From: a bacterium
GTDB taxonomy: Bacteria > B130-G9
Reading direction: 5' to 3'
Assembly (NCBI GenBank): GCA_021160245.1
Contig: JAGHCW010000014.1
Location: 1 to 10,229 of the forward strand
DNA length: 10,229 bases
How positions within the stretch are numbered: the stretch's first letter is position 1; each line of letters begins with the position of its first letter. Positions 233 to 5,106 of this stretch are shown piece by piece. Below the pieces are notes generated by a model, which saw only the letters and a list, made by a program, of their open reading frames with translations, was not told where the DNA came from and did no database searches. The position numbers and the translations under genes were made by a program.

Positions 233-3200
233 TCATGTAACCATCTCCGCGTTCAAGACCAGGCTCCCGCCCTCGTCGCGCACGATGCCGTTCACCATGA
301 GTTTCGGCGTGCCGATGGTCTTGGCGCCATATTGTTGATAGACCTTTGGGAACAAAACGACCTCAACGAGGCCATCGTTGTCCTCCAGCGTCACGAACTT
401 CATATAATCGCCTTTCTTCGTCCGAATCCTCTTCCCTGTGATGACTCGCCCGGAGATCGTAACCTTCCGGTTTATGTGCTCTGCGAGCTGCGAGCTTTTG
501 ACGAAGCCGCGCCGCTCCGCCATCAAATCGCTCCTCTGATGTGGATCGACATTGAGTATCATAAACTCCATCTTCTCTATCTCCTGCCACGTGTATTGAG
601 GCAGTTCGGGCGGAACCGGCAGCGCCGGCGGAATGTTGACCCCAGAAAGCAGAGGTTCTTGCTCCAATTCAAAGGAAAGAGCCGGGTGAAGGCGCATCGC
701 CTGCCACAAAAGCTGTGGCCGAAACAGGCCGAAACAATCCGCCGCGCCGCATCTGATGAGGGCTAAAAGTTCTTGATAAGAGGGCTGGACACGAAGAATA
801 AAATCAGCAAGGTCTATAAATGCGCCGCCAGATTCGCGCGAGCCAAGTATCGAGTCCACAGTCTTCTGCTTAAGCCCGCTAACCTGCTCAAAGCCGATGC
901 GAATGGCGGCGCCTTTGCCGTAGAACCCAGCGAGGCTATGGTTGACGCATGGAAGCTGAACCTCAAGACCGCAACGCTTCGCCTCCTGCACATACTCCGC
1001 CGTGTTGTAATAACCGCCGTGATTGTTGAGCACCGAGGCGAGAAACTCCGCCGGAAAGTGCGCCTTCAGATACGCGCACCGATACGACAACAGGCCATAA
1101 GACACCGCATGCGCCTTGCAGAAGCTGAAACTGGCGAAGCGCGACACAAGCTCCCAAAGATTATCCGCAAACTCTCGCTCAAAACCTTTCGCAACCGCGC
1201 ATTCCTTGAACCGCGCCTCGATCTGCCGCGTCATCGGATATTCACGACCCTTGGTTATCATCTTCCGCATCCTGTGTGCCTCGGCATCGCTTAAACCCAC
1301 CACCTCGACCGCAAGCCGCATAACCTGCTCCTCGGTCATGATGATCCCAAGCGATTCGGCGAGAACGGATTCAAGCGCCGGGTGCAGGTAATCTATCGGC
1401 TCCTGACCGTGAAAACGGCGGATGAACCTATCGAGCATACCGCCCTCGCGCGGCCCGGGCCTAACGAGCGCAATCGCGATTATCACGTCGTCCTCGCATT
1501 TGGGCCGCAAACGCTGCAAGAGATTCCTCATGCTTGGCGATTCGATCTGAAAGCACCCAAGCGTCCGCCCTTCGGCCAAAAGTTTGAGCGTCTCCGGGTC
1601 CTGCCGGTCGATTCGTTCCAAATCGAGCGACGTGCCATAGTTCGCCCTCACGGCCTTTAGCGTGTCCGCAATCACCGAAATCCCGCATTGCCCGAGAAGG
1701 TCTATCTTCACAAGACCTGTCGCCTCGGCCGCGTGCATCTCAAACTGCGTAACGATGAGCCCTTGCGAGGCGCGCTGAAGAGGCGTGTGCCGATTGAGTT
1801 TTCCGCGGCTAACGAGCGTCCCCCCGGGGTGTATCGAGAGATGCCTGGGGAAGCCTCGTATGCGCTCCGCCATAGCGACTACCTTGCGGAAGCTCTTGTT
1901 TTTGAGCAAAAGACCCTTGCACTCGGGCGCCTTCTCTATCATCTCCGGGAGCGGTGTCGAGCCGAAATATGAGATGCCGCTTGTGAGCGCGTTGAGATCG
2001 CCTCGTGAGAGCCCAAGAACGCGCCCGACCTCGCGGAGCGCTCCCCTCGCCCCAAACGTCACGTGCGTCGAGAGCAGCGCCGCGTGCTCCCGTCCATATT
2101 TCTGCAAGGTGTATTTCAAAACCTCGTCGCGACGCCGGTGGCAAAAGTCGAGATCAACGTCCGGGCAACCCTCCCGGCCCCTGGACAAAAACCGCGGAAA
2201 ATAGAGATTATACTTGAGCGGGTCCGGCTGCGTCAGGCCTAGAAGGTGTGAGACGAGGCTGTTGGCCGCCGAACCGCGACCCCACATCGGGATGGCCTGA
2301 CGCCTCGCGAACTTCGCAATGTCCCAAACAATCAGAAAATAGGCCGCCATCCCCATCTCGCCGATGACCTTAAGCTCCCTTTCAAGCTGCTCAACCCGTC
2401 GCTTATCCGCGCTGGGATAAAGCACGCCTAGATTGCGTCGGCAGATCTTGCCTAAAAACTCATGGGCCGAAATCTCGCCGTCCGGCAGAGGAAAGTCTGG
2501 CAACATCGGCGGACGCGCCCGCAGCCTGAACTTGCACCGCCCAGCAATCGCGATTGTGTTCGCAACCGCCTCAGGATAAGACGCAAAGGCATGGCTCATC
2601 TCGGCCGCCGACTTCAGCCAGCATTCCTTAGACACGAACTTCGACTCGGGCAAACTGTTGAGCATCTGATTCAGCCGAATCGCCGTCAATAAACGATGGA
2701 CGTTGTAATCGCCAGGCGCGGCGAAGAAGACCGGCCCCGTCGCCACACGAGGCAAAGATTTGGGGGCAGCCGCAGCGAATTCCATGTGTGTGTTGAGGCG
2801 AGCTCGGAACGTGCGAGCCGAAGAGTAAAAGCAAGAATCTAAAGGATTCTCCCGTGTGCCGTGGGCACCCCCCCCGCTGTTTTCGGGAAATGCACCACCA
2901 TATTGCTGCGCAATCTGGTGACGAGCCGCCAAGCTCTCTATGCGCATCTCGAGGTACAAATCGCCCTTCGGCAAAACCTCCCGCAGCCGTCCGGCCTGCT
3001 CAACATTCTGAACAAGAACTATCAGGCCGCGATGATATATGGATAGCGCCTCGCAGGAATCCTGCGGGCCATCAACATTGTGCCGCGTCAAAATCTCACA
3101 CAAATTGCCGTAGCCTTCACCATCAATAACTAGAAGCACCACATCGCCATCTGAAAACTCCACCAGCGACCCGACAATCGGCTCAATGCCCACCTCATCG

Positions 3201-3361
3201 GCCGCCTTGCAAAACGCGAAAGCTCCATAGAGGTTGTTGGTGTCGGTCAACGCGAGATGGCTCATGCCGAGCTCTTTTGCGCGAGCCAAAAGGTCGCCTA
3301 TCGAACTCGCGCCCGTCAAAAGGCTGTAATTGCTATGACAATGCAGATGAACGAAACTCAT
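233..3361 (-). CDS. dnaE2: DnaE2-like DNA polymerase III alpha subunit (probable SOS-linked polymerase)
   Basis: A 1042-residue C-family DNA polymerase. The PHP domain (about 1-215) opens with HLHCH, but the usual TDH reads TDT (39-41) and the glutamate expected after IVG is missing, so PHP metal binding and proofreading are probably impaired. The polymerase core has GRGSAANS (361-368), the acidic motif PDVDLDF with D401 and D403, and the third aspartate D554 in VKIDLLG. GRGSAANS, HLSIHPGG and the GYY...AKRCGLEV stretch are closer to DnaE2 (ImuC) than to the replicative DnaE. A helix-hairpin-helix region (about 828-877) and an OB fold (about 967-1042) follow; the protein stops there, without the long tau-binding tail of E. 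coli DnaE. QEPLL (901-905) is a possible weak clamp-binding motif. The start overlaps the lexA stop (ATGA) with a good ribosome binding site. Residues about 155-203 look like an insertion. Family assignment is firm, the DnaE2 label likely. Confidence 0.92.
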   Translation of the reverse strand: MSFVHLHCHSNYSLLTGASSIGDLLARAKELGMSHLALTDTNNLYGAFAFCKAADEVGIEPIVGSLVEFSDGDVVLLVIDGEGYGNLCEILTRHNVDGPQDSCEALSIYHRGLIVLVQNVEQAGRLREVLPKGDLYLEMRIESLAARHQIAQQYGGAFPENSGGGAHGTRENPLDSCFYSSARTFRARLNTHMEFAAAAPKSLPRVATGPVFFAAPGDYNVHRLLTAIRLNQMLNSLPESKFVSKECWLKSAAEMSHAFASYPEAVANTIAIAGRCKFRLRARPPMLPDFPLPDGEISAHEFLGKICRRNLGVLYPSADKRRVEQLERELKVIGEMGMAAYFLIVWDIAKFARRQAIPMWGRGSAANSLVSHLLGLTQPDPLKYNLYFPRFLSRGREGCPDVDLDFCHRRRDEVLKYTLQKYGREHAALLSTHVTFGARGALREVGRVLGLSRGDLNALTSGISYFGSTPLPEMIEKAPECKGLLLKNKSFRKVVAMAERIRGFPRHLSIHPGGTLVSRGKLNRHTPLQRASQGLIVTQFEMHAAEATGLVKIDLLGQCGISVIADTLKAVRANYGTSLDLERIDRQDPETLKLLAEGRTLGCFQIESPSMRNLLQRLRPKCEDDVIIAIALVRPGPREGGMLDRFIRRFHGQEPIDYLHPALESVLAESLGIIMTEEQVMRLAVEVVGLSDAEAHRMRKMITKGREYPMTRQIEARFKECAVAKGFEREFADNLWELVSRFASFSFCKAHAVSYGLLSYRCAYLKAHFPAEFLASVLNNHGGYYNTAEYVQEAKRCGLEVQLPCVNHSLAGFYGKGAAIRIGFEQVSGLKQKTVDSILGSRESGGAFIDLADFILRVQPSYQELLALIRCGAADCFGLFRPQLLWQAMRLHPALSFELEQEPLLSGVNIPPALPVPPELPQYTWQEIEKMEFMILNVDPHQRSDLMAERRGFVKSSQLAEHINRKVTISGRVITGKRIRTKKGDYMKFVTLEDNDGLVEVVLFPKVYQQYGAKTIGTPKLMVNGIVRDEGGSLVLNAEMVT
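2753..2899. repeat. Putative palindromic element inserted in frame in dnaE2
   Basis: This segment encodes residues about 155-203 of the polymerase, between AARHQIAQQY and LPRVATGPVFF, where family members normally pass directly from one to the other. The encoded peptide is unlike the family (GGG, then Arg/Ser-rich, then AAAA). The DNA holds three perfect inverted repeats: GCTCG/CGAGC (2802-2818), AGAATC/GATTCT (2834-2850) and GTGCC/GGCAC (2856-2868), followed by a C8 run (2868-2875, G8 in the coding strand). Clustered hairpins inside an open frame recall the palindromic elements that insert in frame in Rickettsia genes. The boundaries are estimates; the alternative is a lineage-specific loop. 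Confidence 0.5.
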
Positions 3362-3966
3362 CGATATCTCCTTACAACGCCCTGAACGACGCCCAAAACG
3401 CTCACCCTTTCCCCAGAGACGATTATCGGCTCAAACGCATCGTTCGCCGGCTGAAGCCGAACATTGTCGCCCTCACGATAAAACCGCTTCAGCGTGCACT
3501 CGCTGCCATCAACCATCGCGATAACAAGCTCCCCGTTTCGCGCCTCGACCCTTTTTTCGACCACGATGCAATCCCCGTCCGCGATATGATCGTCAACCAT
3601 CGAATCGCCGCGAACTCGAAGCGCAAAGCAATCACGCTCTCCAGTAAGCATCTCAGCAAAATCGACCTCCTCAACGTCCTCAAGCGACTCGACCGGCAGA
3701 CCAGCCGCAACCGTGCCCACAAGCGGAACCCGCGACCGCGAGAAGGGATTCTGCTCCCGAACAAGCTCAATCGACCGGCTCTTGTTCCAAGAGCGGCGGA
3801 TAAAGCCCTTCCGCTCAAGGTGAACCAGATGCTTGTGCAGCGAGCCGACGGAGCTGACGCCGAGGCGCCCTGCTATCTCCCGCAGGCTCGGCGCACAGCC
3901 ATGTTGCTTGACGTACGTCGTGATATATTCCAAGACCTGTGCCTGCCGCCGCGTCAGTTGCTCCAT
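3358..3966 (-). CDS. lexA: LexA repressor (SOS regulator, S24 self-cleaving)
   Basis: LexA represses DNA-damage genes and cleaves itself when stimulated by RecA filaments. From the start chosen here it is 202 residues, the same length as E. coli LexA. The N-terminal winged helix-turn-helix spans about 1-65 (PSLREIAGRLGV, then recognition-helix region SVGSLHKHL). The cleavage site is A88-G89 in GTVAAGLP, the nucleophile S122 in GDSM, and the general base K160 in CTLKRF, matching E. coli A84-G85, S119 and K156. An upstream in-frame ATG at 3987 would add seven residues, but MEQLTRRQ aligns with the usual LexA N-terminus and has AAAGGGA eight bases ahead, whereas the 3987 ATG has no clear ribosome binding site. 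It is first in an operon with dnaE2 and has an inverted repeat on its promoter, suggesting autoregulation. The recognition helix differs from E. coli, consistent with a different operator. Confidence 0.96.
   Translation of the reverse strand: MEQLTRRQAQVLEYITTYVKQHGCAPSLREIAGRLGVSSVGSLHKHLVHLERKGFIRRSWNKSRSIELVREQNPFSRSRVPLVGTVAAGLPVESLEDVEEVDFAEMLTGERDCFALRVRGDSMVDDHIADGDCIVVEKRVEARNGELVIAMVDGSECTLKRFYREGDNVRLQPANDAFEPIIVSGERVSVLGVVQGVVRRYR
3368..3373 (-). promoter_or_regulatory. Ribosome binding site of dnaE2 inside the lexA 3' end
   Basis: AAGGAG on the minus strand lies six bases before the dnaE2 ATG (3361) and inside the last codons of lexA. With the ATGA stop/start overlap it fixes the dnaE2 start and indicates translational coupling to lexA. 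Confidence 0.85.
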
Positions 3967-4003
3967 TATTTGAGTCCCTTTGCTCATTCTTTATTTTTCA
4001 CAA

Positions 4004-4190: not shown

Positions 4191-4366
4191 ATGTCAACCT
4201 ACACGCAGATTTATTATCACATCGTCTTCGCGACCAAGAACAGGGAACCTGTCTTGACCTCAGAAGGCCATGAGAGCTTATTTCGATACATCTGGGGTAT
4301 CATCAACCACAAGAACTGTCATCTATACCGCTTAAACAGCCTTGCAGATCACCTTTGTTGCCCCGT
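4191..4366 (+). pseudogene. REP-associated tyrosine transposase (IS200-like), 5' remnant
   Basis: RAYT proteins are single-strand HUH/Y1 nucleases related to the IS200/IS605 TnpA; they are linked to spreading REP hairpins. The first 57 residues match this family: MSTYTQIYYHIVFATKNRE, then the RYIWGIINHKNCHLYRLNSLADH block. Where the family has the metal-binding HUH pair (ADHxH), this reads ADHLCC, so only the first histidine (H54) remains. After that the frame runs into a hairpin and unrelated sequence, and the catalytic-tyrosine half of a protein of about 150 residues is missing. The frame stays open to 4634 by chance, into the next gene. It is almost certainly inactive. The ATG has only a weak A-rich ribosome binding site. 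Confidence 0.8.
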
Positions 4367-4453
4367 CGGGGCAATGGACGTGTCAGGCAACAATCTTCCA
4401 GACTTCAGCGCCGAACCGAAAGATTCGGGTCTGAATGCCCCAAAGGGTCTGGA
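4358..4453. repeat. Hairpin cluster at the break of the transposase remnant
   Basis: TTGCCCC/GGGGCAA around GTC (4358-4374) sits exactly where transposase similarity ends. It is followed by CCGAA/TTCGG around AGA (4416-4428) inside longer arms TCCAGAC (4397-4403) and GTCTGGA (4447-4453). GGGTCTG occurs twice (4427-4433 and 4445-4451). With the hairpins upstream of the remnant, this gives a RAYT fragment with palindromes on both sides, as in a decayed REPtron or several REP insertions. The stretch up to 4510 holds no other feature I can support. Confidence 0.6.
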
Positions 4454-4515
4454 CAAAATCCCACCAATCTGGCCTATTCTCGTCGTAGTATTAGACTGTT
4501 GTAGCAGCCATGACC

Positions 4516-4522
4516 GGAGGGG
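4516..4522 (+). promoter_or_regulatory. Ribosome binding site deciding a GTG start
   Basis: GGAGGGG ends five bases before the GTG at 4528, whereas the in-frame ATG at 4510 lies before this site and has no ribosome binding site of its own. This favours the GTG as start of the membrane protein gene. Confidence 0.7.
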
Positions 4523-4527
4523 ACACC

Positions 4528-5106
4528 GTGAATCAGAAACGTATATCAGCCAACTTCTTCATCTGGGCGTACGCGCTGTGCGCGGCGCTCGCATTCGCTC
4601 GTCAACACTCGCAGGCGAGCCGCTTTGGTTATGATTGGCTGCAATGTGGGTGCCCCATGCTGGCGTTCCTCTCGGGGATCGCTGATATACTCGCGTTCTT
4701 GGTCTTCATGGTCTTCATCTACAAGGTCTGGGTGGAGATTCAGGATGGCCACGCGAGCACATCCGCCGGGAAGGCCGTCGGATTCCTGCTGATACCGTTT
4801 TTCAATATCTATTGGCTATTCAGGGCAATTTGGGGATTTGCCAAGGAGTTCAACAGGTTCCTGGACCGCAACGAGATCAGCGTGGCGAGGCTCTCTGAGG
4901 GGCTTTTCCTCGCATGTTCGATCTTGATGTCGCTGAGGTGGCTTTATAGGACAATCGCAACGCTGGAGCCGCTGACGGGCGTTGGGTTTTCCCTGGGCGC
5001 GTATTCCTATTATCAGGCGATCCCGGTCCATATCCTCGTGATATTCGTCATCTACAAAAGCTGCGAGGCGGTGAATGCATTGCCGGAAGCGAGCTCAGGC
5101 AGCTGA
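4528..5106 (+). CDS. Small multi-pass membrane protein of unknown function
   Basis: A 192-residue protein from the GTG start (198 from the ATG at 4510). Hydrophobic segments lie at about 8-22, 44-66, 83-105, 124-140 and 165-177, so four or five membrane spans are likely. The central stretch GKAVGFLLIPFFNIYWLF (81-98), followed by GFAKEFNRFLDR, resembles a motif I associate with uncharacterised bacterial membrane proteins; I cannot give a family number with confidence. There are three cysteines near the N-terminal half (C18, C40, C42). It is followed by fliP about 65 bases downstream on the same strand, but nothing ties it to flagella: it is not FliO-like in length or sequence. No promoter stands out; TGGACA (4450) and TATTCT (4475) have a poor 19-base spacing. 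Coding is likely because of the strong ribosome binding site and consistent membrane pattern. Confidence 0.75.
   Translation: MNQKRISANFFIWAYALCAALAFARQHSQASRFGYDWLQCGCPMLAFLSGIADILAFLVFMVFIYKVWVEIQDGHASTSAGKAVGFLLIPFFNIYWLFRAIWGFAKEFNRFLDRNEISVARLSEGLFLACSILMSLRWLYRTIATLEPLTGVGFSLGAYSYYQAIPVHILVIFVIYKSCEAVNALPEASSGS

Follow-up and report, generated by a model that had tools for sequence, protein, structure and literature searches.

Protein-coding palindromic repeats are best known in Rickettsia and Wolbachia. The Rickettsia palindromic elements (RPEs; Ogata 2000, as reviewed in PMC2229807) measure 105-146 bp and are found in frame in many genes of their hosts (PMC2229807), and RPE-type inserts are known in the DNA polymerase III alpha gene of Rickettsia (PMC3767692). 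The Wolbachia palindromic elements (Ogata 2005, as cited in PMC2229807) are likewise protein-coding palindromic repeats from a different host and are compared here by behavior. Within DnaE2 genes, REPs have been reported for other bacteria (PMC3733652).

The window analyzed here is a 10.2-kb contig (10,229 nucleotides; G000:C211) in a 3.43-Mb MAG, G000, whose uncultured host bacterium we place, by inference, in Coatesbacteria. This candidate phylum is known through environmental metagenomes. Repeats were compared among four MAGs of one Coatesbacteria family, G000 and G001 to G003, and BLAST showed that those of the window are common to the three other genomes. A preliminary description had proposed a single in-frame insertion of about 49 codons within the PHP region of the dnaE2 gene. 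The insertion is indeed in frame and open, but it comprises two nested repeats rather than one element. We conclude that the segment very probably represents two non-autonomous hairpin-forming repeats, one nested in the other within dnaE2, presumably translated through and tolerated as a disordered loop (Table 1).

Table 1. Positions in the window of the repeats, their hairpins, and the genes around them
Feature	Position	Strand	Description	Basis
dnaE2-like gene	233..3361	-	Error-prone DNA polymerase gene, repeat host	Pfam, NCBIfam, AF2
lexA	3358..3987	-	Overlaps dnaE2 start, directly upstream (SOS context)	NCBIfam TIGR00498, E=5e-62
Outer repeat, footprint	2755..2948	-	Older; split by inner repeat into 5' part (2948-2872) and 3' part (about 2776-2755); encodes LAARHQIAQQYGGAFPENSGG ... 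AAAPKS	Model R3
Outer-repeat hairpin	2896..2920	-	CACCA-G-ATTGC-GCA-GCAAT-A-TGGTG	Compensatory changes, sequence
Inner repeat	2792..2875	-	Younger; 84 bp; reading frame GAHGTRENPLDSCFYSSARTFRARLNTHM	Model R1, 77 bits; BLAST copies; 27 codons absent in G003
Inner repeat, 5' hairpin	2856..2868	-	GTGCC-CAC-GGCAC; conserved module, two sequence flavors	Copy alignment, hairpin count
Inner repeat, middle hairpin	2834..2850	-	AGAATC-CTTTA-GATTCT; window copy only	Hairpin count; missing from other aligned copies
Inner repeat, 3' hairpin	2802..2818	-	GCTCG-CACGTTC-CGAGC, then TCGCCTC; most conserved module	Copy alignment

Two repeat families in and around dnaE2

The host gene encodes PHP, Pol III alpha, finger, HHH, and OB domains (Pfam, NCBIfam), and its frame is open across 2753-2899. 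Both a Pol III alpha-type architecture and an SOS context were found (domain profiles, structure match, and lexA). The window protein scored 690 bits against the curated error-prone polymerase family NF004225, below the cut-off of 939, and likewise fell under the cut-offs of the replicative DnaE models (NCBIfam). A second full-length DnaE-type gene, with 32% identity to the window DnaE2, is encoded in G000. We infer the name DnaE2 from the lexA neighbor and this second gene, with the curated-family score below its cut-off. Polymerase motif residues (e.g., P400, D401, D403, and D405) are invariant, and comparison of the G000 and G003 genera indicated purifying selection on dnaE2 (dN 0.18, dS 1.23).

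Hairpins were counted by script; a short-seed repeat search had returned nothing. On the dnaE2 minus strand, three perfect hairpins fall within 67 bp (2868->2802), which bears out the earlier claim of three in less than 70 bp, and none of 2,000 dinucleotide shuffles of the 84-bp element contained three. Across the window, about 0.2% of 84-bp stretches have three perfect hairpins. The wider 171-nt stretch had an ordinary folding energy (z about 0); the signal is therefore one of discrete palindromes, not of overall stability.

An alignment of 24 copies of the inner repeat revealed a unit of about 80 bp, in which a 5' hairpin of either of two flavors (GTGCC-CAC-GGCAC or GCGGAG-AGC-CTCCGC) precedes a variable spacer, after which comes a nearly invariant 3' hairpin (GGCTCG-CACGTNC-CGAGC), itself followed by TCGCCTC. 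Of the three hairpins in the window copy, the first and third recur in other copies and the middle one is private to it; the hairpin modules are kept in non-coding copies too. A model trained on the 24 aligned copies (R1; E-values rough) gave 54 inner-repeat matches in the four genomes at E<1e-3, and 68 when the threshold was relaxed to E<=1, mostly in G001. BLAST with window DNA recovered copies in the same genome (G000:C47 and G000:C4) and in G001, G002, and G003 (best E=8.5e-18), with one borderline match beyond the family (E=0.0097) among the other 56 of 60 genomes. Further copies, which the preliminary description had suggested seeking by BLASTN, are thus present in the source genome and by the dozen in its sister genomes, in genes and outside them. 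An exact pattern for the second 5'-hairpin flavor matched only G001 among 290 genomes and missed a known G003 copy; it is therefore too strict to gauge spread. In G000:C4 (L151, 2148-2189), half an inner copy lies within a longer palindromic stretch, GGTGCCGGCT...AGCCGGCACC, that immediately precedes a DNA polymerase IV gene.

The remainder of the 2753-2899 segment, together with the DNA to about 2948, is an older repeat common to the G003 ortholog. Elsewhere this outer repeat is about 113 bp long, has three hairpins, and is mostly intergenic. BLAST of the outer-derived DNA of G003 matched G000:C4 (82% over 67 bp) and copies in G001 and G002. A hold-out model (R3) was built from six copies, all outside dnaE2, after removal of hits L192 and L199 of model R2, whose alignments ran in reverse orientation owing to the near-palindromic last hairpin of the outer repeat. 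This model matched the window dnaE2 at 2948-2845 (E=3.2e-9) and the G003 dnaE2 over the whole model length (E=4.4e-19), with no match in eight other dnaE-type genes or two PGM-gene loci. Since a model built without them finds the dnaE2 copies, the peptide LAARHQIAQQYGG is repeat-encoded as well. Compensatory changes across copies affected 6 of the 13 pairs of the outer hairpin at 2896-2920, and 13 of 28 outer-repeat pairs among the six hold-out copies. Another outer copy directly adjoins the 3' end of the dnaE2 of G003 (locus L056, 4089-4186; E=1.2e-16, R3), and other outer copies are also found at gene ends. One AAA ATPase gene (MSPKKKKK...IFIGPNNSGKTY) has an outer copy on its 5' side in three genomes (L088, L005, and L090 about 1430-1600).

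These data bear directly on whether the extra residues could be an ordinary lineage-specific protein insertion that looks palindromic by chance. The PHP loops of DnaE proteins do vary in length (alignment), and the unremarkable overall folding energy would suit such an origin. The explanation is nonetheless refuted by the DNA copies elsewhere; with the R3 match to the ortholog and the conservation of hairpin modules in non-coding copies also against it, we assign it next to no probability.

Occupied and empty sites and the order of insertion

At the site of the inner repeat, the DnaE2 ortholog of G003 (L056; another genus, 74% identical) reads QYGGTSHKNSGG-VWGHAMAAPTSLP, versus QYGGAFPENSGG[27 residues]EFAAAAPKSLP in the window. 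The flanks of the two genes align at the DNA level and 81 bp are absent from G003, so that the homolog alignment sets the edges of the inner insert at exactly 27 codons. Conservation of these residues among homologs, with no extra genomic copies of the DNA, had been named as grounds for abandoning the repeat interpretation; instead, genomic copies exist and the closest ortholog is without the 27 codons. The outer repeat is present in the dnaE2 PHP region of both the G000 and G003 lineages. The inner repeat, with its two hairpin modules and variable spacer, lies inside the last outer-hairpin loop in the dnaE2 of G000 but not of G003. Both repeats are open in frame as parts of dnaE2.

Other genes are also occupied. 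In G001 and G003, a phosphomutase-type (PGM/PMM-type) gene is longer by about 28 in-frame codons; it is without the inner insert in G002 and in the distant genomes G008 and G035, and carries a different short insert there in G000. In-frame presence in a conserved gene, with absence from close orthologs, was therefore found for this gene as for dnaE2. Breaks and joins at repeats are common in MAG contigs, and an assembly artifact could in principle produce such inserts, but the dnaE2 frame is colinear on both sides, the independent MAG of another genus (G003) has the outer copy at the same codons, and the PGM insert is present in two MAGs. We regard an artifact as highly improbable. RHS genes in G001 and G002 carry in-frame copies. 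The frame of an RHS gene at G000:C47 changes at a copy, and a group II intron reverse transcriptase gene is cut short right at an inner copy (L143, G000:C96, 2537-2620); insertions can therefore break genes too.

The dnaE2 of G003 has two further inserts. An antisense inner copy elsewhere in the gene (L056:2271-2351; 66.5 bits, R1) stands in for native residues (129 bp versus 102), and a third in-frame, hairpin-rich insert near the C terminus (L056, 3699-3815) is matched by neither repeat model. It is conceivable, and we offer the idea only tentatively, that dnaE2 is a preferred and repeatedly re-colonized landing site in this phylum (two families, nested in G000; three separate inserts in G003), that the loop of one repeat serves as a target for the other, and that a repeat peptide replaced a native polymerase stretch, with selfish DNA supplying error-prone polymerase sequence.

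The order of events was approached through a second nested locus. The inner repeat occupies the same outer-repeat loop in dnaE2 (G000) and in the spacer that separates tatC from an ATPase gene (G001); in G002 this spacer holds the outer repeat alone. Because the same nested loop occurs at two loci, a composite unit, gene conversion, or precise loss in G003 could each have produced the pattern. We consider it rather unlikely that outer and inner repeats reached dnaE2 as one larger mobile unit, or by gene conversion, in place of two successive insertions. The identical arrangement at two loci would be expected from such a transfer, and the inner copy of the tatC spacer is the closest relative of the window inner copy (79%). 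However, the outer part of the window dnaE2 is nearer to that of the G003 dnaE2 (75%) than to the tatC composite (66%), and therefore at most the inner part was copied; moreover, many inner and outer copies stand alone (models). The simplest reading of these few sequences is that the outer insertion is old and shared, and that the inner repeat was inserted, or introduced by conversion, later in the G000 lineage. The outer repeat would then have entered dnaE2 before the G000/G003 split, and the inner repeat would have arrived afterward.

Predicted translation and structure of the repeat-encoded residues

The AF2 model of the window DnaE2 had a mean pLDDT of 84.8, with 2hnh as its best structural match (Z 45.5, rmsd 3.7, 847 aligned). 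Residues 147-191, for which few homologous rows were available, had a pLDDT of <50; in this region, from window residue 92 to 178, the sequence alignment to E. coli Pol III alpha is interrupted. The G003 protein has four segments with a pLDDT of <50: three of them (148-188, 456-480, and 941-977) correspond to its three inserts, and the fourth (897-910) does not. Residues that have no homologs are expected to score low, so these values fit a flexible loop and are no proof of one. The loop envisaged in the preliminary description was thus predicted, but with very low confidence that stems in part from the lack of homologous rows. The models fit repeat-encoded residues that would form a flexible loop on a confident polymerase fold. 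The 33 outer-derived dnaE2 codons look relaxed (dN 0.36, dS 0.52), this being a small sample.

Strong hairpins inside a gene also raise the question of whether the element is removed from the product, as an intron, an intein, or by translational bypass, and so never translated or retained. No stop interrupts the frame of any dnaE2 or PGM copy, insert lengths are multiples of three, which removal does not require, no splice or intein features were seen, and the window had no Rfam match. Removal is therefore very doubtful indeed. Under the favored reading of translated repeats, most insertions into genes would be lost, and the survivors would be those with a length that is a multiple of three, no stop, and an exposed loop as their site. 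The dnaE2 mRNA would be translated straight through the repeats, the extra residues would form a disordered loop, and the polymerase would presumably stay functional.

Mobilization and relation to described repeats

The copies may spread as DNA, helped in trans by a transposase or by recombination on hairpins. Y1 (IS200-like) transposase genes number one to three per genome in all four genomes. In the window, positions 4191-4634 (+) hold a 5' Y1 transposase fragment that covers profile positions 2-53 of 121 and breaks off at about 4355. About 1.3 kb separate this fragment from the dnaE2 copy, and it is without repeat-type ends of its own. The inner repeat might accordingly be a REP of the GTAG or CGTC super-families, moved by a RAYT/IS200-type (Y1) transposase. 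Its short hairpins, its many extragenic copies, and its copies in a repair gene, as in PMC3733652, suit such an origin, as do the Y1 genes themselves and the fragment near dnaE2. However, no inner-element hairpins were found within about 1.5 kb of the Y1 genes of G001-G003 (a miss is possible in these incomplete MAGs), and no transposase bearing repeat ends was found around Y1 genes. Neither tag has a majority among 35 inner copies: 16 have GGTC as the 4-mer 5' of the main (3') hairpin, 3 have CGTC, and GTAG is not dominant. We therefore judge a REP origin unlikely.

The resemblance to GTAG/CGTC REPs includes a frequent position 3' of genes and intragenic copies in DNA synthesis and repair genes, DnaE2 among them (PMC3733652), but the Coatesbacteria repeats are without the GTAG/CGTC tag, longer, and multi-hairpin, and no RAYT gene flanked by them was found. 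Correia/NEMIS and ERIC MITEs are also small non-autonomous repeats fused in frame to ORFs (PMC2229807); they have terminal inverted repeats and target duplications, whereas no clean target duplication could be defined for the inserts described here. RPEs are close in behavior. The likeness extends to hairpin formation, intergenic and intragenic copies, in-frame insertion, the Pol III alpha gene as a host, and possible hotspots. RPEs are reported in exposed regions, where the Coatesbacteria inserts may also lie. The Coatesbacteria repeats differ in phylum, in forming two modular families, in nesting, and in length (84 and about 113 bp versus 105-146 bp). Dispersed copies, hairpin structure, and in-frame presence in conserved genes with absence from close orthologs were all observed. 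The proposed Rickettsia-like reading thus holds as an analogy of behavior, with genomic copies and an empty ortholog site behind it. The preliminary description had also called a repeat in a polymerase gene notable. A repeat does colonize dnaE2, but the case is less unusual than stated because REPs in DnaE2 (PMC3733652) and RPEs in Pol III alpha (PMC3767692) are already published. With REP/RPE inserts in DnaE2 and DnaE known, what is notable here is the nesting and the repeated insertion into one gene.

Mobile repeats can apparently become protein as they do in Rickettsia, here through repeat families that appear to be new. The locus offers a clear case from a candidate phylum, with orthologous empty sites, members of two genera, and a nesting that gives a time order. 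It also extends the published hints of repeat accumulation in DNA-repair polymerases (PMC3733652, PMC3767692), and the question of why repair genes are hit becomes testable in another lineage.
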